Part shown: one piece after another, positions 3,514 through 19,605 of the stretch | How the letters are laid out: every line of letters begins with the position of its first letter | Position numbering within the stretch: the first letter of the stretch is position 1 | Virus record (IMG/VR): IMGVR_UViG_3300050343_000038 | Span: 1 to 33,724 of that record | Origin: a virus | DNA: 33,724 nucleotides | Direction: 5' to 3' (one strand) | The notes under the pieces: generated by a model | The model's input: only the letters and a program-made list of their open reading frames with translations | Databases searched by the model: none | Told to the model about the DNA's origin: nothing | Translations under genes and position numbers: made by a program

Positions 3514-3527
3514 CGACTAATTAGTCG
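3514..3527. repeat. Perfect 14-bp palindrome over the capsid stop codon
   Basis: CGACTAATTAGTCG is self-complementary and contains the capsid stop (3523-3521). With the GCAA hairpin just downstream it makes a double stem structure at the end of the most highly expressed structural gene. Its function is unknown. Confidence 0.55.
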
Positions 3528-5806
3528 CTTGATTTACAGAAAGATACTGCATGTCTTACAGCTACATCTAAAGTTTGTAGAGCAACAATTCGTACCCCAC
3601 CTGATGTGCTAAGAGCATACGGATCAACTGTTATATCAAGACCGCCATAAAGACCAATTAATAAGTCTGCAAAGTTACCAAAGTAGTAATCACCTGAAGT
3701 AACTTGGTTTGATCTAACAACATCATATCCATTAATGTTTCCATCTGGACCGACTATCATTTGACCAAATCCACTTGCTTTATCAACAGTTTTTAGGTTA
3801 CCCCAATCTGCAGGTCTAGCTATATATCTTAATGACCCTGTTAAAGCGTTGTCATTTGATACAGCAGATTCCATTGCAACTAGCTCTGCAAATGTAGGCA
3901 CGGCAGCGGCAAATGTTGTAGTGTTAATACCTGAAGTATTAGCAATACCAGTAGGTTGGCCACTTGAACCTGAACCAGTTAAAGCACCTAAGTCAATTGC
4001 AGTAGCAATAGAAGCACTTAAGTCATTTCTTATTAAGTTTTCAACATCTAAAGAAGACTGCTGAAGCATTAATCTTGAAGCATCTGTAAACGCGCCAATT
4101 ACTTTTGGAGACATTGTTACTGAACCTGTAGTAAATTCACTTTCAGCAGCAGCAGCGCCTTCAGTTGCAATCCAAGCAGCAGATGAAGCACCTGTTTTCT
4201 TTGGTATTACAATATTTCCTTGCAATCCGCGTAAGGTCGTCGCTCCGGCTTGCATAACGCTTGAAGAGTTTCTTAATACATCAATAAAATCACCAGCTCT
4301 ATAATCTTCAGATATAAGAGTTGAATCATCGGATGTGTTTAAGTCTCTTTTACCCCATGCTCCTAAAACTTCTGCAGGAAGCATAATGCCTTGAGCTGTT
4401 TTACCATACTGTCTAGCAGCTTCATCTGAACATTCAAATTCAAATTTAGCAGCTTCTTGAGCTTTTCTATCTGAAGGATTTGCTAGTGCATTAATTGCTC
4501 TAACTAAAGAGAATTCTCTTACTTCTTCTTTGCTCATACCGATTTCAGCAGTATCTAAAGGTTTGTCATTGCAAATTTCATTTAACAATGCACCTCTAAA
4601 TTCTTCTACTGAAACACCGTTTCTAATAGCGTCATCAGCTAAATCTCTTTTGTTATGCTTAACAGCTAAATCAATGATTTCTTTCGAATTTCTTTTGAAT
4701 TCAGCTTTAGCTTCCTCAAGAGTCTGGCTTCTGACTTCGTCAAGATTAATATCTTGTTTTTTTTCTTCTGTCATAATAATACCTTTTTTTAAGTTAGCAG
4801 AACGACCAACACCAACAAGTCGCGACTGATCTGCCGGCACAGAAACACTGGATACCTCCATTGGAGTCCAGGCTGCGCGGTAGTAGTCTTCATCGCCGTT
4901 GTTATCTCGTTCTAATTTATTTACTCTATACCCAACACTTATATTCATTCGAATACCGTCTTGAATATCCTGAAAAACTTCTTGAGCAAGAGCTGATCTT
5001 CCCAATCTTACTACTGCTATTGTCTTTTTAGCAGTCTCATCAAGTTTAAATTCTTCTATAACTCCAATCTGTTTAGTCATATCATGATCTAACAAAAACG
5101 GAGCCCTACCTGAAGATATAAATTGCATATCTATATCTTTTTGCTCGTGGCTTAAAACTTCTAAGCCAAATGAGCGTTCAACCGGTTCTTCAGAGCTTAC
5201 GCCAATTCGAACAAGTCTTTTTTCTTCATCAATATAAGATGCTTTTGATAAATCAATTGTTCTATAATTTATAGAAAAATCAATATCGCGGTTATCTTCG
5301 TCTTGATCTGAAGATGCTTCTAATTCAATAGCATCATCTTCTTGTTTTACATCCTTATGCTTCTCAAACTCAACCACAACTGTGCTATCTGTTTCAGTCA
5401 CATTAAGGATATGTCTATCTTCTTTTAACATAGATTCCTCCTTTAGGTTTGTTAATAAAGGATGTTTTTCCGACCCGTTAAGGCCAAAACTTTTTTCATT
5501 TTTCATTTGATTAACTAATTTTCTTGACCAGCTATAACCTGCGTCCCCGCCCCATAAGCCCCAGGCAATTCTGCCATTGCTAGGAAAGCCGTCTTCACCA
5601 GGTCTAAATCCTTCTGCTTTTTTATCAACCTCATGTCTAGAAAAATAACTATACATTCTTTTGATCGTGCTGTCGGACAAGTCAACACCGTTAACAATTT
5701 GATTTGCTCGTGTAACGCCAATACGCGTTCCCCCTCTACCAAATTCTTTACGCCAGTCTAATGCTCTTTGAGCGTCTTCTTTCATTCCTTTAGTCGGTAT
5801 CGTCAT
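3521..5806 (-). CDS. Fused prohead protease and HK97-type major capsid protein
   Basis: A 761-residue protein starting at the ATG at 5806, chosen because AAAGGAGG lies 8 nt upstream. A further in-frame ATG at 5836 lacks such a site. Residues about 1-95 (ALDWRKEFGRGGTRIGVTRA, then GFPSNGRIAWGLWGGDAGYS) are a domain often found attached to phage proteases. Residues about 175-335 are the HK97 prohead protease fold, with FLLDHD carrying the likely catalytic His and NISVGY the likely Ser. From about 345 a helical delta/scaffold-like segment is followed by the HK97 capsid fold (about 440-761: WIATEGAAAAES..., YIARPADWGNL..., VAVRHAVSF). The protease would cleave the fusion and the scaffold segment during maturation. 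The 3' end of the portal gene overlaps its start by 17 nt. Confidence 0.93.
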   Translation of the reverse strand: MTIPTKGMKEDAQRALDWRKEFGRGGTRIGVTRANQIVNGVDLSDSTIKRMYSYFSRHEVDKKAEGFRPGEDGFPSNGRIAWGLWGGDAGYSWSRKLVNQMKNEKSFGLNGSEKHPLLTNLKEESMLKEDRHILNVTETDSTVVVEFEKHKDVKQEDDAIELEASSDQDEDNRDIDFSINYRTIDLSKASYIDEEKRLVRIGVSSEEPVERSFGLEVLSHEQKDIDMQFISSGRAPFLLDHDMTKQIGVIEEFKLDETAKKTIAVVRLGRSALAQEVFQDIQDGIRMNISVGYRVNKLERDNNGDEDYYRAAWTPMEVSSVSVPADQSRLVGVGRSANLKKGIIMTEEKKQDINLDEVRSQTLEEAKAEFKRNSKEIIDLAVKHNKRDLADDAIRNGVSVEEFRGALLNEICNDKPLDTAEIGMSKEEVREFSLVRAINALANPSDRKAQEAAKFEFECSDEAARQYGKTAQGIMLPAEVLGAWGKRDLNTSDDSTLISEDYRAGDFIDVLRNSSSVMQAGATTLRGLQGNIVIPKKTGASSAAWIATEGAAAAESEFTTGSVTMSPKVIGAFTDASRLMLQQSSLDVENLIRNDLSASIATAIDLGALTGSGSSGQPTGIANTSGINTTTFAAAVPTFAELVAMESAVSNDNALTGSLRYIARPADWGNLKTVDKASGFGQMIVGPDGNINGYDVVRSNQVTSGDYYFGNFADLLIGLYGGLDITVDPYALSTSGGVRIVALQTLDVAVRHAVSFCKSSD
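4772..4790 (-). promoter_or_regulatory. Internal ribosome binding site and start for free capsid protein
   Basis: Inside the fusion gene the minus strand reads AAAAAAAGGT, then a short spacer, then ATG at 4774, in frame. Translation from here would give a 417-residue capsid precursor (MTEEKKQDINLDEV...) with delta domain and capsid fold but no protease. That length is typical for an HK97-type capsid protein. It would let the phage make more capsid than protease without a separate gene. Confidence 0.5.
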
Positions 5807-7301
5807 TATTTGACCCTCCTTTAATTTCGGGTTCAATTGGCATTTTTATTCCAAATGGCTGGAATGCTGTTTTAATCCCGTACTGCTCAGCAAGTTTTTG
5901 TTCTCTTTCGTGCTGTTCGTATAGCTCTTCAACATCACGCCCGTAATTAGATTGAACATCTTGATATGTTACAAGGCCGGCTTGCATACCACTTATTGAC
6001 GCATTCATTTCTTTTTGTGGGTCTACCCACTGGAATGATCTGCCAATAAAAATTGTATTATTTGCAAATTTTTCATATTTACCCATTGGTAATGGTCCAC
6101 TCGCCTCGTCTCCCATCATAATAGCGCCACTTGAAATAGCCATTTCAAGCCACTTTTCAAACACAGGCCGCATAAAGTGATCAACTACAAATCTTTGATA
6201 TAGCTTATACATTTCTCGGTCTTCTAAAGCGCCTGCTCTTAAAGAACTATAATTTACAGAGCTTAAATCATTTGTTAATGCGTGATATGAAATATTTAAT
6301 CCTGAAGCTATTCCTCTTAATACCTGGGTTGTAAACGGGCCAAAAGCTGTAGCCGGATGATCGGGATCAAAACTTTTAAAATCCATGCCAGCTGGTAACT
6401 GCTCAAAGCTGCCAGCGGATGCTTCCATAATAGGAGTGTACTCATCTTCGTAACCTTCGCCTATATAGCCATCACCGTCCGGGCTTGTAAAGAATCCCAT
6501 TTTAGCTGCTGAAACGCGAGCCGCTGTAATTTCAGCTTCCATATAGCCATTAAGCATTTTTATCTGAGGCATAGCAGAAGCAGTCATAGGGACTCCTCTG
6601 GTCTGCTCTGCTCGTGTCGGCATGTAAGCGTGTATGATTTCCTCAGCTGGAACTCTTATGTGCTCTTTAGGCGACTGATATGTATTATCATACGGATGAT
6701 TTTTAAATAAATAATATGCAACAGGCTTATCAAACTTGTCTACCTCTACGCCCATTTTAATTTTATTTTTAGTTTTTGAGTTAACTCCGTTTTTCTGCTC
6801 ATCTAAATGATCAGCTTCAAGAAATTGAATTTTATATTTGTATTTAGTATCAGTTGGCGTAGCGTGTCTTATTAAAACTTCTCCGTCTCGCATTAACGCT
6901 TCTACAAATAATTTTTGACAATCTAAAAATGATTGCCTGCCATTAAGCGTGCAATTCCCCATTTTTGCCCAATTTTTAAATTCACGCTCAATAGTTTGAT
7001 TGCCTAATATGTCTAAATCGCCTTTAGGGTTTCTTGCTTTAACGCTTAGCCTAATACCATTTGCTCCAATGATATTGCTTATCATTAAATTTAAGTACCT
7101 GGTAACATACGAATCATTTCTTGCTAAATCTCTACTGCGATCTCTTAAAATTCTTAATTGATCTTTTATTTCAGAATCCGCTGAAGTATTTGCAGCTTGA
7201 AAGTCCGCAAATAGTCTGCCGGTATTAGCACCTGCATATCTACGAGTAGAAGATACTTTTTTTAATTTTTTTTTGTTTGTAAATCTGTTATACCAGGCCA
7301 T
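5790..7301 (-). CDS. Portal protein, lambda gpB family
   Basis: A 503-residue protein starting MAWYNRFTNKKKLKKVSSTR. The segment AGANTGRLFADFQAANTSAD, the helix RDRSRDLARNDSYVTRYL, and the IGANGIRLSVKARNP and LFVEALMRDGEVLIRH blocks are hallmarks of the Phage_portal_2 (lambda) family. YHALTNDLSSVNYSSLRAG is the conserved stem/crown block. Portal dodecamers form the DNA channel at one capsid vertex and dock terminase and then the connectors. The gene follows the gpW-like gene with a 2-nt gap and precedes protease/capsid, the standard order. The length is close to that of lambda gpB (533). Confidence 0.95.
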   Translation of the reverse strand: MAWYNRFTNKKKLKKVSSTRRYAGANTGRLFADFQAANTSADSEIKDQLRILRDRSRDLARNDSYVTRYLNLMISNIIGANGIRLSVKARNPKGDLDILGNQTIEREFKNWAKMGNCTLNGRQSFLDCQKLFVEALMRDGEVLIRHATPTDTKYKYKIQFLEADHLDEQKNGVNSKTKNKIKMGVEVDKFDKPVAYYLFKNHPYDNTYQSPKEHIRVPAEEIIHAYMPTRAEQTRGVPMTASAMPQIKMLNGYMEAEITAARVSAAKMGFFTSPDGDGYIGEGYEDEYTPIMEASAGSFEQLPAGMDFKSFDPDHPATAFGPFTTQVLRGIASGLNISYHALTNDLSSVNYSSLRAGALEDREMYKLYQRFVVDHFMRPVFEKWLEMAISSGAIMMGDEASGPLPMGKYEKFANNTIFIGRSFQWVDPQKEMNASISGMQAGLVTYQDVQSNYGRDVEELYEQHEREQKLAEQYGIKTAFQPFGIKMPIEPEIKGGSNNDDTD

Positions 7302-7894: not shown

Positions 7895-7918
7895 AAATTA
7901 AAAATATATCTATACCCG

Positions 7919-7948
7919 ATTATAACGAATATTTATAATAAATTGTAA
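7919..7948 (-). promoter_or_regulatory. Candidate promoter before the head operon
   Basis: In the 61-bp gap before the gpW-like gene the minus strand shows TTACAA (7948-7943), an 18-bp spacer and TATAAT (7924-7919), a fair sigma70-type match. It would drive the head genes independently of the nucleotide cassette. It does not contain the 16-bp motif shared by the other two strong candidates, so a different control class is possible. Confidence 0.5.
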
Positions 7949-7955
7949 GATATGT

Positions 7956-8420
7956 TTAAAATTTATTTTTATGTAATTTTATATAATTTATATTACTTTT
8001 AGCTAGTAATTCTGTTGAGGTTTTAAAACTTTTAACCCACTTATCTTTAGGCGGTTTCGGCGAATACGTTACCACTTCTTTTATACCTACTTGAATAATA
8101 CCTTTTGCACATTCATGGCACACCTCTAAGCCATACACAAATAATGTTGACCCTTCTAAGGATATCCCATTTAGTGTGGCATGGTATATACAATTCATTT
8201 CAGCATGAATAATATATTGTTTTTTTAATTCTGAGTTTTCATATATGTTGAGCGTATCATTAAACTTTTTAGGAAATCCGTTATAGCCCTGTGATAATAC
8301 TTGACCTTTTGAACCTATAGCAACAGCACCAACTTTAACTGAAGGGTCTTTAGACCAGCTAGCAAACTTTTTTGCTAATTCAATATATTTTAAATTCCAT
8401 GCATCAGAATAATTAGACAT
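7956..8420 (-). CDS. dCMP deaminase
   Basis: A 154-residue member of the cytidine/deoxycytidylate deaminase family. The zinc site is visible as H72-A-E74 (YIIHAEMNCIYHA) and C101-x2-C104 (LEVCHECAKG). Glu74 is the proton shuttle. The Pro normally seen before the first Cys is replaced by Val. The N-terminal pattern WSKDPSVKVGAVAI followed by GYNGFP is typical of dCMP deaminases. The enzyme would make dUMP from dCMP and feed thymidylate synthesis. Its ATG overlaps the stop of the thymidylate-synthase-like gene by 8 nt, and it is the last gene of a five-gene cassette. In T4 the equivalent enzyme (cd) works beside dCMP hydroxymethylase. Confidence 0.9.
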   Translation of the reverse strand: MSNYSDAWNLKYIELAKKFASWSKDPSVKVGAVAIGSKGQVLSQGYNGFPKKFNDTLNIYENSELKKQYIIHAEMNCIYHATLNGISLEGSTLFVYGLEVCHECAKGIIQVGIKEVVTYSPKPPKDKWVKSFKTSTELLAKSNINYIKLHKNKF

Positions 8421-9207
8421 TAACTTTTAATTTTTGTACTGCATTATGTTTATAACTTGATATTAAGAAATCATTATTATAAATATTATCAATATTAGCT
8501 TGATCATTTAATTTTACATTTGGTGGGTTAAATATTTCAAGCGTATCAATAGTTTTTGCAAACTGCAAATGATTATTATAGATATGCGCGTCGCCTAAAT
8601 TAAATATTAGTTTATGAGGAGTTATATCTAATTCATTAGATAAAACTAACATTAATAATGCATGAAACAAGACATCCGAAGGAAGTCCCACCATTACATC
8701 AGACGAGCGCATATTGACTAGTAAATTTAAATTATTCTCGTGAATTAACAATTGAAAACCGTGAAAACATGGTAATAAAGCCATTTTATTAGCATCAATC
8801 GGATTCCAGGCTGTTACATACAACCTTCTTGATTGAGGATTCTTTTTAGCTTCGCTAATTACATTTCGTAACTGATCTATTTTAAACCCCGAATAATTTC
8901 TCCACTGATAGCCATATATAGGCCCAAGGTTTCCATCATCCTCAGCCCAGGCGTCCCAATAGTTACAACCCAAACTTTTAAAGTCATTAACATTTGTATG
9001 GCCTCTTAGGAAAGCTAATAGCTCGCCAATAACGCCTTTATAAAATATTTTTCTATGCGTTAATAAAGGAAAGCCTGCTTTAAGATTTAATTCTAAGTTA
9101 GCACCAAATATACTTTTTGTACCAACGCCTGTTCTTTCTTTATCCCTATTAACGCCTTGAGTTAATACTTTGTTAACTAGATTGAAATATTGCTTTTCAT
9201 TTTCCAT
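8413..9207 (-). CDS. Thymidylate-synthase-fold enzyme, probable dCMP hydroxymethylase or dCMP methylase
   Basis: A 264-residue protein (E. coli ThyA is also 264) that aligns across its full length with ThyA. Conserved: R25 (RTGVGT), E62 (GELLAFLRG), W84 and W87 (WDAWAEDDG), Y98, R127-R128, catalytic C147 (LLPCFHGFQ), R167-S168-x-D170 (MRSSDV), H208 and Y210 (DAHIYNNH). Two changes fall on the base-recognition site. ThyA N177 (GLPFN) is D178 here (GLPSD), and ThyA H147 beside the nucleophile is F148. Asn-to-Asp at this position is the established determinant of dCMP preference in T4 dCMP hydroxymethylase and in engineered thymidylate synthases. The substrate is therefore probably dCMP. Whether the product is hydroxymethyl- or methyl-dCMP cannot be told. 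A plain dUMP enzyme remains possible. Tightly overlapped by its cassette neighbours. Confidence 0.88.
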   Translation of the reverse strand: MENEKQYFNLVNKVLTQGVNRDKERTGVGTKSIFGANLELNLKAGFPLLTHRKIFYKGVIGELLAFLRGHTNVNDFKSLGCNYWDAWAEDDGNLGPIYGYQWRNYSGFKIDQLRNVISEAKKNPQSRRLYVTAWNPIDANKMALLPCFHGFQLLIHENNLNLLVNMRSSDVMVGLPSDVLFHALLMLVLSNELDITPHKLIFNLGDAHIYNNHLQFAKTIDTLEIFNPPNVKLNDQANIDNIYNNDFLISSYKHNAVQKLKVNV

Positions 9208-9463
9208 TTTGTTTTTTTAAGTAAGCTCCGTAAAAACTAGCATAATTAATTAAATCTAATACCGAATCATAGCTAGATTCAAAGTTAGGTTTCTTTTCGT
9301 CAAACGCTATCGATTCTAAACGCTTTACTTTTGTTTGAATCATTTGCAAATATGAATGATGCCCATACGGAAAATATTCTTGCTTAGCTTCAGAATCTTT
9401 TGAGTTGTAATCTTCGGCTTTTTGTTTTTGTAAAGCTGCCGCTTCGCTTAATACTGAATGCAT
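9197..9463 (-). CDS. DUF1599/Nmad1-type nucleotide-associated protein
   Basis: An 88-residue helical protein with KAEDYN near residue 16 and the block YLQMIQTKVKRLESI...NFESSYDSVLDLINYASFY. This matches the pattern of the small DUF1599 family (Nucleotide modification associated domain 1), often encoded in phages beside thymidylate synthase or other nucleotide enzymes and thought to relate to all-alpha NTP pyrophosphatases. A TAAGGAGT Shine-Dalgarno precedes the ATG. It overlaps the thymidylate-synthase-like gene by 11 nt. The family call is from pattern memory, and the biochemical role of the family is not well established. Confidence 0.65.
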   Translation of the reverse strand: MHSVLSEAAALQKQKAEDYNSKDSEAKQEYFPYGHHSYLQMIQTKVKRLESIAFDEKKPNFESSYDSVLDLINYASFYGAYLKKQNGK

Positions 9464-9466
9464 GTT

Positions 9467-9868
9467 TTACTCCTTATTTAAAAAATCTAATTTACCTACA
9501 TTATCAAAATGTTGAGGAGCTTGCCAGCCTTCTGGTTTTACAAGATCGGGCAATCCTAAAGGATTCGGCCTGCTATCTTTAACTCCTATTTCTTTTTGCA
9601 TGTTTGCATGATGCACACGCTTCCATGCTGTTTTAATATCTACATCAAACGCATCAAGAGAGCCTAGCGCAATTACAATGATATCTATAAAAGCATCAAC
9701 TACTTCATCGGGCTCTTCATTGTTAATAGCTTCAAACAATTCTGTTAATTCTTCTTGAATAAACTTAGCTCTAAATTCAAGATAATGTAATTTTTCATTA
9801 TCAGATGCTTTGCTAATAAACCGGTATATTTTGTAATACCGGTTTAATTTTTTAATATCGCCAATCAT
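9467..9868 (-). CDS. All-alpha NTP pyrophosphatase (MazG / dCTPase-like)
   Basis: A 133-residue protein with the paired metal-binding motifs of the all-alpha NTP pyrophosphatase superfamily: E39-E40-x2-E43 (IQEELTELFEAI) and, 11 residues on, E55-x2-D58-x3-D62 (EVVDAFIDIIVIA). The C-terminal WKRVHHANMQK block recalls the HisE/MazG-like 'V..SN.SK' helix. Family members hydrolyse (d)NTPs to monophosphate and pyrophosphate; T4 gp56, a dCTPase/dUTPase, does this to supply dCMP and exclude dCTP from DNA. Given the dCMP-type neighbour, dCTP is a reasonable substrate guess (inference). The start shares an ATGA overlap with the upstream gene. Confidence 0.82.
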   Translation of the reverse strand: MIGDIKKLNRYYKIYRFISKASDNEKLHYLEFRAKFIQEELTELFEAINNEEPDEVVDAFIDIIVIALGSLDAFDVDIKTAWKRVHHANMQKEIGVKDSRPNPLGLPDLVKPEGWQAPQHFDNVGKLDFLNKE

Positions 9869-10080
9869 TTTTTATTAAAATCCGCAATAACTTTTTTATT
9901 TTCTTTAACCATAAAATTGTAAGCGTCTTGCTTGTTATTAAAACGAAAATGTTTAGGTACTTTATGTTTAAAAGGGTTCATACCTTTAACAAAAAAATGT
10001 GTATAAGAGGCCGATGGTCCTCCAAGCACATACCAAGTATAAGCAGGGTTTTTTACATATGGATTATTTTGTATATTCAT
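9865..10080 (-). CDS. Small protein, first gene of the nucleotide cassette, unknown
   Basis: A 71-residue aromatic-rich protein (NPYVKNPAYTWYVLGGPSAS, then THFFVKGMNPFKHKVPKHFR) with a basic C-terminal helix (AYNFMVKENKKVIADFNKK). A TTAAGGAG Shine-Dalgarno lies 6-7 nt before the ATG, and its stop overlaps the pyrophosphatase start as ATGA. It is the promoter-proximal gene after the motif shared with the early promoter. I do not recognise the family. The compact beta-then-helix layout and basic charge would suit a small regulator or nucleic-acid-binding protein, but that is a guess. Confidence 0.7.
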   Translation of the reverse strand: MNIQNNPYVKNPAYTWYVLGGPSASYTHFFVKGMNPFKHKVPKHFRFNNKQDAYNFMVKENKKVIADFNKK

Positions 10081-10118
10081 AATTAACTCCTTAAATTATG
10101 TTGTTTGTTTATAAGATA

Positions 10119-10156
10119 ATTATATCAAATCATATATAAATGTATACCTTTTTATA
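10119..10156 (-). promoter_or_regulatory. Promoter of the nucleotide cassette with shared 16-bp motif
   Basis: The minus strand shows TATAAAAAGGTATACA (10156-10141), ending in a -35-like TATACA, then a 16-bp spacer and TATAAT (10124-10119), followed by the Shine-Dalgarno of the first cassette gene. The identical 16-bp motif lies in front of the early operon (19498-19483), there with a 17-bp spacer before TATAAT. It begins 3 nt after the terminase large subunit stop. Confidence 0.7.
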
Positions 10157-10159
10157 TGT

Positions 10160-14042: not shown

Positions 14043-14208
14043 AGTTACATTAATAGTTACATATTAGCAAAAGGCGACTTCTTAAAAAGTTACATGAGTT
14101 ACATATACCTAAAGGTATATGTATGTAACTCAAAATGTAACTCTTTTTTCTTTGAAGTTTGAAAAGAAATGTAACTAAAAAGTAACTAATGTAACTAATT
14201 ATGTAACT
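14043..14208. repeat. Array of ten 8-bp repeats around a palindrome; possible replication origin
   Basis: Four copies of AGTTACAT (starting 14043, 14055, 14088, 14097) are followed by a perfect inverted repeat, ACATATACCT (14101-14110) and AGGTATATGT (14113-14122). Six copies of the reverse form ATGTAACT follow (starting 14123, 14135, 14169, 14180 with one mismatch, 14189, 14201). Starts within clusters are often 9 or 12 bp apart. The stretch has no plausible gene and lies between the primase-helicase stop and the next start. Iteron-like arrays beside a replication initiator or helicase gene are a common origin layout. An operator array is the main alternative. Confidence 0.7.
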
Positions 14209-17267: not shown

Positions 17268-17382
17268 TTTTCTTTTCTTTCTTTTTCTTTTTAAATATTA
17301 AATCCCAATTAGCATCAACCTTTTTTTTATCTTCAGGCCTTCTTTTTGAGCCTTTGCCTCCGTGCCATTTAGCCATCTTCAT
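17257..17382 (-). CDS. Small lysine-rich phage protein with KGGKGS-type motif
   Basis: A 41-codon gene, MKMAKWHGGKGSKRRPEDKK, then NWDLIF and a lysine-rich end. The GGKGSKRR...D......NWD.IF pattern is the same as in small proteins of many podo- and siphoviruses that carry KGGKGSAPRK...FDKIFGK. Their function is unknown. It overlaps the upstream gene by 14 nt and the downstream gene by 11 nt, which supports real translation. The alternative start at the third codon (Met3) is possible. Confidence 0.65.
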   Translation of the reverse strand: MKMAKWHGGKGSKRRPEDKKKVDANWDLIFKKKKKEKKNGK

Positions 17383-17515
17383 TTGATTTTAATTTTTCTT
17401 TTAAAAGCTTTTCAACAACAAAAATCATCTTTTGCCCGTTTTTATCGCAATATTGTTTTAATTCTTTATGCGTATCTGGCTTAATCCAAACTGCTTTCAT
17501 TTGTGTATCATCCAT
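17369..17515 (-). CDS. Small ribbon-helix-helix-like protein, possible regulator
   Basis: A 48-codon gene reading MDDTQMKAVWIKPDTHKELK, then YCDKNGQKMIFVVEKLLKEK. A short strand (MKAVWIKP) followed by two helices (DTHKELKQYCDKNG and KMIFVVEKLLKEKL) is the ribbon-helix-helix layout of CopG/Arc-type repressors. These dimers bind short palindromic or repeated operators. TAAGGA precedes the ATG, and it overlaps its upstream and downstream neighbours by 8 and 14 nt. If it is a DNA binder, the shared promoter motif or the 14101-14122 palindrome would be natural targets (inference). Confidence 0.62.
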   Translation of the reverse strand: MDDTQMKAVWIKPDTHKELKQYCDKNGQKMIFVVEKLLKEKLKSNEDG

Positions 17516-18446
17516 GTTTTTTAATCCTTAGAGTCTTAGCTCTGATTGACCTCGCTTCTTTAGGAGGAGTTATTTTTTCGGGCTGAGGTTTATAGTTAAT
17601 CATCGGCCACATTACCGTGTGGGTGTTCGTTTGGCCCCCATCAGCGTCTTTAATTAGTTCTTTTAAAGCTAATTCTGCATCTTGTATAGTTACTTGCAAA
17701 TCTTTAATTAATCTTTTGCTTTCAGTTATTGTTTCGCACAGCGTATCAGCTTTATGCTCTAAACTAATAATATCTTTATTAACATTATTATATACAATGT
17801 TTGCATCATCGCTAGTTGTAGGCGGATAATATAATTTATTTTTTACTCTATGATCAAAATCTAATACTAACGAGTTTAATTCTTTTTGAAACTCAGGTTT
17901 CCTGGAGTATAAATAAATCCTAAAGTCCGTTGATTGCCATAGCACTATAACGGCAGCCCAGCTATAACCCGTGCATTCCATTAATCCTTTGGCTTGCAAT
18001 ACGCCTCGCCACTCTTCCAAATCGTTAGTAGCTATATTCCTTGTGGCTTTGCACTCTATAACACCAGGACCATCTAAAACTATTGTTTCTTGTTCCGGAA
18101 TAATTACATGATCTAAATCGCCGTTTCTAAATGTAACTTCTTTAGCTATACCAGTAGCATCTAAGGAGCCCGCAAGGGGGAGTGTCGAATGTAATACAGG
18201 CTCCTCATAGTCTACTTTTACGCTATCAAGGCCTAATATATTTTTAGCCTCTTCGCATAAAACTGGTTCAAGTAAATCACCCATGCGTTGTAGCATGAGT
18301 TGTGGTGTTTGTTCTGGCAAGTCCCCTTCACTTGCTTTGATAGCAGTGTCAAGCCATTGATTTCTTGTTTGATATTGACTAATACCTTTTATATAAGGTA
18401 GCGTTGAGCAGCTTGCTTGATCGTATCTTGTTTTTTTACCTACCAT
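17508..18446 (-). CDS. YqaJ-type viral recombinase / lambda exonuclease-like nuclease
   Basis: A 312-residue protein from the ATG at 18446, chosen because ATAGGAGT lies 8 nt upstream. A longer reading from 18476 has no such site. The opening RYDQASCSTLPYIKGISQYQ resembles the 'G.S......GLS.Y.T' block of the family. Candidate metal ligands are E60 (GDLLEPVL), D96 (AGSLDATG) and E131-C-K133 (GVIECKATR), and VLQAKGLMECTG supplies the following Gln/Lys helix. The C-terminal part has a coiled coil (KADTLCETITESKRLIKDLQ). Such enzymes resect dsDNA 5'-3' for single-strand annealing. I see no Beta/RecT-like annealase, though an unrecognised small neighbour could do this. Confidence 0.82.
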   Translation of the reverse strand: MVGKKTRYDQASCSTLPYIKGISQYQTRNQWLDTAIKASEGDLPEQTPQLMLQRMGDLLEPVLCEEAKNILGLDSVKVDYEEPVLHSTLPLAGSLDATGIAKEVTFRNGDLDHVIIPEQETIVLDGPGVIECKATRNIATNDLEEWRGVLQAKGLMECTGYSWAAVIVLWQSTDFRIYLYSRKPEFQKELNSLVLDFDHRVKNKLYYPPTTSDDANIVYNNVNKDIISLEHKADTLCETITESKRLIKDLQVTIQDAELALKELIKDADGGQTNTHTVMWPMINYKPQPEKITPPKEARSIRAKTLRIKKHG

Positions 18447-18450
18447 TTTA

Positions 18451-18669
18451 TTAACTCCTATAATATAAATCAGCAATTTCCATTAAAGACAAATCGCTTG
18501 GTATTGTATGCACTTCTTCAGCTTTGCCAGGTTTTTTGTTAATAACCTTCATACTGTTATCGTTATAAATAGTTTTAACATATTTATTAACCCCATAATT
18601 ATTTACTTCAATCTCTTTAACGCCTTGGGACCACTTAACAATTTTTTGTATATCAGTTACAGGAATCAT
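18451..18669 (-). CDS. Small early protein, unknown
   Basis: A 72-residue protein (MIPVTDIQKIVKWSQGVKEI, then YGVNKYVKTIYNDNSMKVIN) with mixed strand/helix character and a C-terminal helix SLMEIADLYYRS. The start overlaps the upstream stop as ATGA, and the stop lies 4 nt before the exonuclease ATG, so it is co-translated. No recognised family. Confidence 0.65.
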   Translation of the reverse strand: MIPVTDIQKIVKWSQGVKEIEVNNYGVNKYVKTIYNDNSMKVINKKPGKAEEVHTIPSDLSLMEIADLYYRS

Positions 18670-18866
18670 AAGTACGACCTATGTATTGCTTTTACTTTTT
18701 TATAGAAAGATATAAAATCTTTTTCACTATAATTAGCATCATCATAATGAAAAACTGTTGACTCTACAGGGTTTTCAATAGGGTTATCTTCAACAACCCT
18801 TAAAAACCATAATAAAAACTCAATTTCTTTTTGATTAAATTTACGTTGATTCAAATTAATATTCAC
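18666..18866 (-). CDS. Small early protein with GTG start, unknown
   Basis: A 66-residue protein beginning at GTG (18866), which overlaps the upstream TGA as GTGA. The sequence NQRKFNQKEIEFLLWFLRVV, then HYDDANYSEKDFISFYKKVK, is helical and charged. Its stop overlaps the next start. No family recognised. The chain of 4-nt overlaps from 18866 to 18666 supports a real operon. Confidence 0.62.
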   Translation of the reverse strand: MNINLNQRKFNQKEIEFLLWFLRVVEDNPIENPVESTVFHYDDANYSEKDFISFYKKVKAIHRSYL

Positions 18867-19039
18867 TGTACTACCCCCATTAAATAAGCAATTTCGGTTA
18901 ACGACTCTCGAACTTTATGTTCGCTTTCACCAACTTGTACTTTTGTTTCGCCTGTTAAAAAGTCTTTGTAGTAACCTCTTATTTCTCGCTTAGGTAAAGA
19001 GATTTGCCCTCCGCCTATAATGTTTAATATTACTTCCAT
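18863..19039 (-). CDS. Small early protein, unknown
   Basis: A 58-codon gene reading MEVILNIIGGGQISLPKREI, then GYYKDFLTGETKVQVGESEH and ESLTEIAYLMG. GAGGAGGT lies 6 nt before the ATG, an unusually strong Shine-Dalgarno. It overlaps the upstream gene by 10 nt and the downstream GTG start by 4 nt. The short beta-hairpin-plus-helix layout recalls small host-takeover proteins, but no family is recognised. Confidence 0.62.
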   Translation of the reverse strand: MEVILNIIGGGQISLPKREIRGYYKDFLTGETKVQVGESEHKVRESLTEIAYLMGVVQ

Positions 19040-19272
19040 TGTTTACCTCCTCTTAATTCCCAATCCATATTGTGATCAGCAATTCTGGTATCTTGATTCC
19101 ATTCGTACACTTTACCGGTGCCAATATGTTTAACATGGTTTATTAATTGTGCTTCGGCATTTGTTTTAGGCATATCTACAATTTCAAATTTATTGCCAAT
19201 TTTTTTTGCAGGAGCAAAGTTTTCGTATTTTAAAATAGTTTGAAAATCTTTATAGCTTTTTTCTATAGGCAT
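19030..19272 (-). CDS. Small early protein, unknown
   Basis: An 80-residue protein: MPIEKSYKDFQTILKYENFA, then KIGNKFEIVDMPKTNAEAQL, INHVKHIGTGKVYEWNQDTR and a short C-terminal WELRGGKQWK. The stop of the preceding basic protein lies 1 nt upstream. It has mixed charge and no transmembrane or catalytic motif that I can see. It is the second gene after the early promoter. Function unknown. Confidence 0.65.
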   Translation of the reverse strand: MPIEKSYKDFQTILKYENFAPAKKIGNKFEIVDMPKTNAEAQLINHVKHIGTGKVYEWNQDTRIADHNMDWELRGGKQWK

Positions 19273-19273
19273 T

Positions 19274-19423
19274 TTACTTCCCCTTCTTTTTAGTTAGTTT
19301 TACTTCGTGACCCTGTTTGATTAACCTAGCTCTTTTCCTAGCCATATAAAATAAGTCTCTTGTCTTAATTGCAACTACCCAACCTAAGCTAGGTAGTTTT
19401 ACTTGTAAAGTGTATCTAGTCAT
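19274..19423 (-). CDS. Small basic protein, first gene of the early operon
   Basis: A 49-residue protein from the ATG at 19423, chosen because TTAAGGAGTT lies 7-9 nt upstream. A longer in-frame reading from 19531 would run across the promoter. The sequence (TRYTLQVKLPSLGWVVAIKT, RDLFYMARKRARLIKQGHEV) is a strand-strand-helix unit with a very basic end (KLTKKKGK). It could bind nucleic acid or RNA polymerase as an early takeover factor, but no family is recognised. Confidence 0.68.
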   Translation of the reverse strand: MTRYTLQVKLPSLGWVVAIKTRDLFYMARKRARLIKQGHEVKLTKKKGK

Positions 19424-19459
19424 GTTATTTAACTCCTTAATTTTATTTAACATACCCCC

Positions 19460-19498
19460 ATTATACAAGGCTAATATATGTTTGTATACCTTTTTATA
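19460..19498 (-). promoter_or_regulatory. Early promoter with shared 16-bp motif
   Basis: The minus strand shows TATAAAAAGGTATACA (19498-19483), whose last six bases serve as a -35-like box. A 17-bp spacer and TATAAT (19465-19460) follow, then GGGGG. The Shine-Dalgarno of the first early gene lies about 25 nt downstream. The 16-bp motif is identical to the one before the nucleotide cassette (10156-10141). Confidence 0.75.
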
Positions 19499-19545
19499 TA
19501 TATTTATGCATGTTATATAAAGGCTCAACAAAGTAAAATAAACAA

Positions 19546-19605
19546 GAGGCCGATATATAAATATGCATACTCCTTAACTCAATATCTCTGTATTTAGTCG
19601 GCCTC
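19546..19605 (-). terminator. Long-loop inverted repeat between late and early regions
   Basis: Arms TCGGCCTC and GAGGCCGA (19598-19605 and 19546-19553 on the plus strand) are perfect 8-bp complements separated by 44 nt. The upstream arm encodes the last residues of the nuclease gene. On the minus-strand transcript the second arm is followed by TTGTTTATTTTACTTTG, which is U-rich. This is the natural place to end late transcription. The large loop makes a normal intrinsic terminator doubtful. Confidence 0.35.

Follow-up and report, generated by a model that had tools for sequence, protein, structure and literature searches.

A repeated promoter element in a phage genome probably marks two places for one early-type module

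In the window (the whole stretch of DNA analysed here, a 33,724-base virus record of 35.1% GC whose identified genes lie on the minus strand), one element precedes both a nucleotide-gene cassette in the late region (site A) and the early operon (site B). The two sites are probably two places for one early-type promoter-leader module with a small-ORF slot, swapped between the places. As proposed, the module would comprise a sigma-70-like promoter, a dyad over its -35, a short leader carrying a Shine-Dalgarno sequence, and a slot that takes one or two accessory ORFs. On the best reading, site A is an early-type slot resembling morons and PeSL cassettes, with the MazG, ThyA and dCMP deaminase genes of this lineage behind it.

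Genes were ordered as tail genes, holin/lysozyme, a 152-aa protein, site B and the early operon (small ORFs, nuclease-like genes, a 208-aa protein, primase-helicase), followed by a likely cos site, terS, terL, site A and the nucleotide cassette, and then by head-tail joining, portal and capsid genes. A megablast search of named phages with the window had no match. The nearest named phages were roseophages CRP-821/811/406, at about 52% terL identity (CRP-821: terL 52%, portal 48%), and a terL relative at 60% identity is present on a SAR86 single-cell contig. CRP-821/811/406 are founders of the 'CRP-822-type' family, of which subgroup V has about 35.4% GC and is predicted to infect SAR86 (PMC12629253). 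Judged from sequence comparison, the window is probably a member of the family. Relatives were gathered by scanning IMG/VR for terL, thyA, primase and the exact motif, and the element was located in them by a mismatch scan. The comparison contigs were metagenomic, and exchange was inferred from comparison among them.

Many relative contigs start at GTTATTCGC.., about 62 nt before terS, and this start matches the window after GACCGCCGCG, at about 12489 (-). The point is likely a cos end, which would put some 2.3 kb between site A and the left end of the virion DNA. The AT-rich gap after the primase-helicase gene (14043-14206) holds clustered GTTACAT/ATGTAAC repeats and an inverted repeat, possibly origin iterons, and a single 771-aa ORF at 3521-5836 fuses prohead protease and major capsid domains.

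The preliminary description had reported an identical 16-bp motif before the early operon and the cassette, each copy followed by TATAAT, and no third exact copy. All of this held: exact copies of TATAAAAAGGTATACA lie at 10156-10141 (-) and 19498-19483 (-), the distance to TATAAT is 16 bp at site A and 17 bp at site B, and a third exact copy was not found in the whole window. The full identity is longer, at 17 bp (ATATAAAAAGGTATACA, 10157-10141 and 19499-19483). The twin repeat alone is weak evidence, because the window has seven distinct direct repeat pairs of at least 16 bp; dinucleotide shuffles gave a mean of 0.47 repeated 16-mers. With 3 mismatches allowed, the window contained 5 matches to the motif vs. 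1.75 expected. It is position together with conservation, as read from the aligned sequences, that lifts the twin element above chance. Elsewhere in IMG/VR, the exact 16-mer had 51 matches outside the group; these unrelated contigs were considered as group members and judged to be background (right dyad arm in 1/51, -10 in 2/51). Two contigs, L107 and L111, apparently of a T4-like phage, have this 16-mer and a TATAAT ahead of a CobS-like gene.

The dyad element of site A, ATATAAAAAGGTATACATTTATATAT, lies at 10132-10157 on the minus strand, has the form ATATA-N5-GTATAC-N5-TATAT and is conserved in relatives. It overlaps a predicted sigma-70-like promoter (10119-10146, minus strand; TATACA 10146-10141, 16 bp, TATAAT 10124-10119), and sites A and B each match the sigma-70 hexamers at 10/12 positions. 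A leader with AAGGAG (10092-10087) follows at 10081-10118 (-) and can form a weak hairpin (CATAATT/AATTATG) with the Shine-Dalgarno sequence in its loop. A special role for this hairpin was set aside, its folding being no better than that of shuffles. In three different leaders (sites A and B, and G012), the start codon region lies in a stem and the Shine-Dalgarno sequence in a loop.

Behind the leader, all on the minus strand, are a 71-aa ORF (9865-10080), which has no PHROG or Pfam match and is replaced by other ORFs or by none in relatives, a MazG-like nucleotide pyrophosphohydrolase (9467-9868; PF01503), an 88-aa protein (9197-9463; PHROG match to hydrolase family phrog_18404, DUF1599 below cut-off), thymidylate synthase ThyA (8413-9207; PF00303) and dCMP deaminase (7956-8420; PF00383). 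The head-operon promoter region (7895-7955, minus strand; ..ATAAATATTCGTTATAATCGG..) lies behind the cassette, is conserved in relatives and differs in sequence from the A/B element. The cassette thus bears out the earlier view that it has an early-operon-type promoter of its own (predicted), which differs from that of the head genes behind it; since the head promoter is both conserved and different, the cassette looks like a separate unit. Its genes have 28-33% GC vs. about 38% for terL and portal, a composition that differs from the neighbours. No terminator was found in the window clade between terL and site A or at the cassette end, so early read-through from site B could also express the cassette.

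At site B, the conserved dyad element ATATAAAAAGGTATACAAACATATAT (19474-19499, minus strand) overlaps a predicted promoter with the same 10/12 score (19460-19488, minus strand; TATACA 19488-19483, 17 bp, TATAAT 19465-19460), followed by the leader GGGGGTATGTTAAATAAAATTAAGGAGTTAAATAAC (19424-19459, minus strand). Slot B of the window is empty, the first gene, e1, running from 19423; the start of the early operon (17508-19423, minus strand) consists of e1, e80, e58, e66, e72 and a 322-aa nuclease-like gene. Between the 152-aa gene and site B there is a conserved long-loop hairpin, GAGGCCGA..TCGGCCTC (19546-19605, minus strand), in which one pair is altered on both sides in relatives (GAGGCTGA..TCAGCCTC); it is perhaps the end of the late/lysis transcript.

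The element was recovered at site A in 35 contig records and at site B in 30, some records being the same contig. Nearly all close relatives covering the stretches concerned have site A after the terL stop and site B before the early operon, and in nearly all relatives with at least 79% terL identity the site A element begins a few bases past that stop. The 26-bp dyad, with its centre overlapping the -35-like TATACA, was kept in 22 of 26 distinct elements. The scan of relatives for the same pair, which had been proposed as a check, found exactly two dyads, A and B, in each of the 7/7 long contigs (window included). In a clade at 77% terL identity, the dyad is retained at site A with its filling changed. 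The 54-61% terL clade has a shifted form of the promoter, TATACATTTATATAT..TATAAT; among its contigs with a filled site A, both sites were read in L303 alone, and there the shifted form occurs at both.

The stretches behind the two leaders are hypervariable, each slot holding none, one or two small ORFs. Slot A, from the leader to the next conserved gene, carries alternative ORFs of 50-101 aa or is empty (L025, L039), and slot B carries ORFs of 57-137 aa or is empty (the window and eight other records). The variable ORFs gave no useful PHROG function, with one weak match to a family of unknown function. Most ORF families are site-specific and only a few occur at both sites: L053-A vs. G002-B/L137-B at 91% aa identity, L008-A vs. 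G005-B at 66%, L035-A vs. G002-B at 40%, and L303-A vs. L369-B at 76% (vs. window e80, 54%). Leaders are also common to the two sites, with 99% identity for L019-A to L141-B and for L053-A to L181-B, and a B-type leader is present at site A of L017 and G005. When the DNA was aligned, homology ran from promoter start to ORF stop in L053-A vs. L137-B, and from the element to the ATG in L019-A vs. L141-B and L053-A vs. L181-B, with unrelated flanks in each case. L008-A and G005-B have a common ORF and different leader types, so ORFs also seem to move alone. In L303 (11815-12490), the leader ATGTTAAACAAAAAGGAGTCAAA recurs before the second slot ORF, suggesting a stacking of leader-ORF units.

The idea of a mobile cassette of promoter plus genes was thus partly upheld: the homology blocks point to movement of promoter, leader and one small ORF, and the nucleotide genes, which stand behind site A in closer relatives only, gave no sign of moving between sites. 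Steady homogenisation of A with B inside a genome found no support, same-genome pairs being no closer than different-genome pairs in the 8 two-site genomes (permutation P = 0.31 and 0.09), which points to occasional exchange.

More distant relatives differ at the terL-head junction. An insert is present in the window clade, L301, L303, L307, L311, L323, L337, L338 and L342; in L298-L300, L302, L304-L306 and others the gap is just 81-90 nt with a head promoter, and in roseophages CRP-821/811/406 terL and the head genes are adjacent. Filled sites of the 54-61% terL clade carry an early-type promoter, a B-like leader, 1-2 ORFs and an intrinsic terminator, the whole unit lying upstream of a resident TTGACA-type head promoter. 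No homologs of the window nucleotide genes were detected in these filled units, and the cassette is absent from CRP-821/811/406 and from a SAR86 single-cell contig. This distribution, as opposed to a tree, suggests that the slot came first and that the nucleotide genes were placed behind it. In L026/L030/L031, a terminator-like hairpin after terL is followed by opposite-strand sequence and then by the MazG cassette. By their anatomy as read from sequence, the distant filled units are morons, and the window unit is called only moron-like because no terminator of its own was found in the window cassette.

A 43-aa predicted ribbon-helix-helix (RHH) protein is encoded in the early operon at 17369-17500 (-); profile and fold matches, of which no single one is decisive, point to RHH regulators and make it a candidate for regulating both dyads. 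Its Pfam match was below gathering (PF07764, E 4e-4), its PDB matches were RHH regulators (best 2kel, 56B, E 0.004), and its AlphaFold model (pLDDT 84) has an extended N-terminus and two helices; the top Foldseek matches were mostly RHH (ParG/Arc/CopG types), none with E < 0.001. Identity of the predicted protein across main-clade early regions was 70-98% (61% in L292); it fell to 33-39% in the 60% clade, whose element is different too. The earlier suggestion that the twin element is a site for a phage-directed factor is accordingly possible, and binding of the RHH protein to the dyads is offered as a hypothesis.

If the module works as proposed, host RNA polymerase would read A and B at the same early time, and the cassette would be switched on together with the early genes. 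MazG, ThyA and dCMP deaminase would then be made early despite lying among packaging and head genes, and the head genes would use the separate promoter at 7895-7955. The short common promoter and leader would supply homology for exchange of ORFs and promoters, both between the places and between co-infecting phages. In what is the weakest step, the early RHH protein would bind the dyad and shut both promoters down together.

Three other explanations were weighed. Two independent strong host-type promoters, alike through the preference of host RNA polymerase for AT-rich sequence, would agree with the 10/12 hexamer fit at both sites and with the same 16-mer and -10 in an unrelated T4-like phage (L107/L111); an A-tract at about -42 to -38, which we presume would suit a proximal UP element, also favours them. 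However, the head promoter of the same genomes differs, conservation extends to spacer and dyad positions to which sigma-70 would be indifferent, and homology runs on through leader and ORF, so that this origin is considered improbable. Site A could nevertheless have kept its own promoter under selection for the same host polymerase. A second possibility, judged scarcely probable, is that promoter A is a mere booster within a long early-to-late transcript, most cassette expression coming from read-through that starts at B and crosses terL. In its favour, the genes are one-directional and the search of their strand gave no convincing terminator from B to A; against it, promoter A is kept immediately behind the terL stop throughout the clade, and in sister lineages a putative terminator separates terL from the cassette.

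The twin element might instead be mainly an operator, with the 43-aa RHH protein co-regulating early operon and cassette and the likeness kept by binding, an account that does not exclude the exchangeable module. We regard it as doubtful: the dyad in 22/26 distinct elements and at both sites of all long genomes, the predicted protein kept in the main clade and diverged along with the element in the 60% clade, and its RHH-type PDB and Foldseek matches speak for it, while it leaves the common leaders and ORFs unexplained, the Pfam scores are below gathering and the dyad is AT-rich. Rather unlikely as a whole is the broader picture of a small lytic phage swapping genes between two addresses tied together by one early RHH repressor. 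If true, small genes, perhaps for host takeover or counter-defence, would move between the early operon and a late slot with the same timing and shut-off.

For the preferred reading of two places for one module, a second early-promoter copy used as a dock would be a way to install early-type genes in the late region with the core genes unmoved. The slots mark a place to harvest new small phage proteins, possibly for counter-defence or takeover. These marine phages are abundant and mostly uncultured; roseophages are the closest named phages to them, and SAR86 may be their host. The dyad and the 43-aa RHH protein form a testable candidate operator-repressor pair.

Among known systems, morons (definition in PMC6316719; P22 pid, PMC3573128; SPP1) are, like the site A unit, late-region inserts between genes that adjoin in relatives, with their own promoter (here predicted) and small ORFan proteins, and the 54-61% terL clade units have their own terminator too. 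Unlike in morons, the promoter-leader here closely duplicates the promoter of the phage's own early operon, the same ORF families occur at both places, and orientation is the same as that of the neighbours. The likely family of the window is almost without integrase (PMC12629253) and hence probably lytic. The SAS/ESAS of cluster K mycobacteriophages, a 13-bp GGGATAGGAGCCC at start codons with many copies per genome (PMC3203893), are likewise repeated conserved sequences, partly inverted repeats, ahead of different gene families; the A/B sequence differs from them, includes -35 and -10 and has two copies. The protein 56B (PDB 2kel), P22 Arc and, by prediction, the 43-aa protein are small viral RHH-type proteins, the last a candidate for dyad-over-promoter binding. 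PeSL cassettes of T4-type phages were reportedly described by Arbiol in 2010 and Comeau in 2014. Viewed through PMC4503421 and PMC4177764, they consist of an early promoter and a stem-loop terminator in many copies per genome. Compared with them, the A/B module is similar as a repeated intergenic early-promoter sequence and in apparent homology for small-gene shuffling, and different in that a ~33-kb phage has just two copies, the clade of the window shows no stem-loop terminator, and leader and Shine-Dalgarno sequence lie inside the repeat. The same ORFs and leaders at A and B, with block boundaries at the element, fit PeSL-like shuffling, presumably by recombination.
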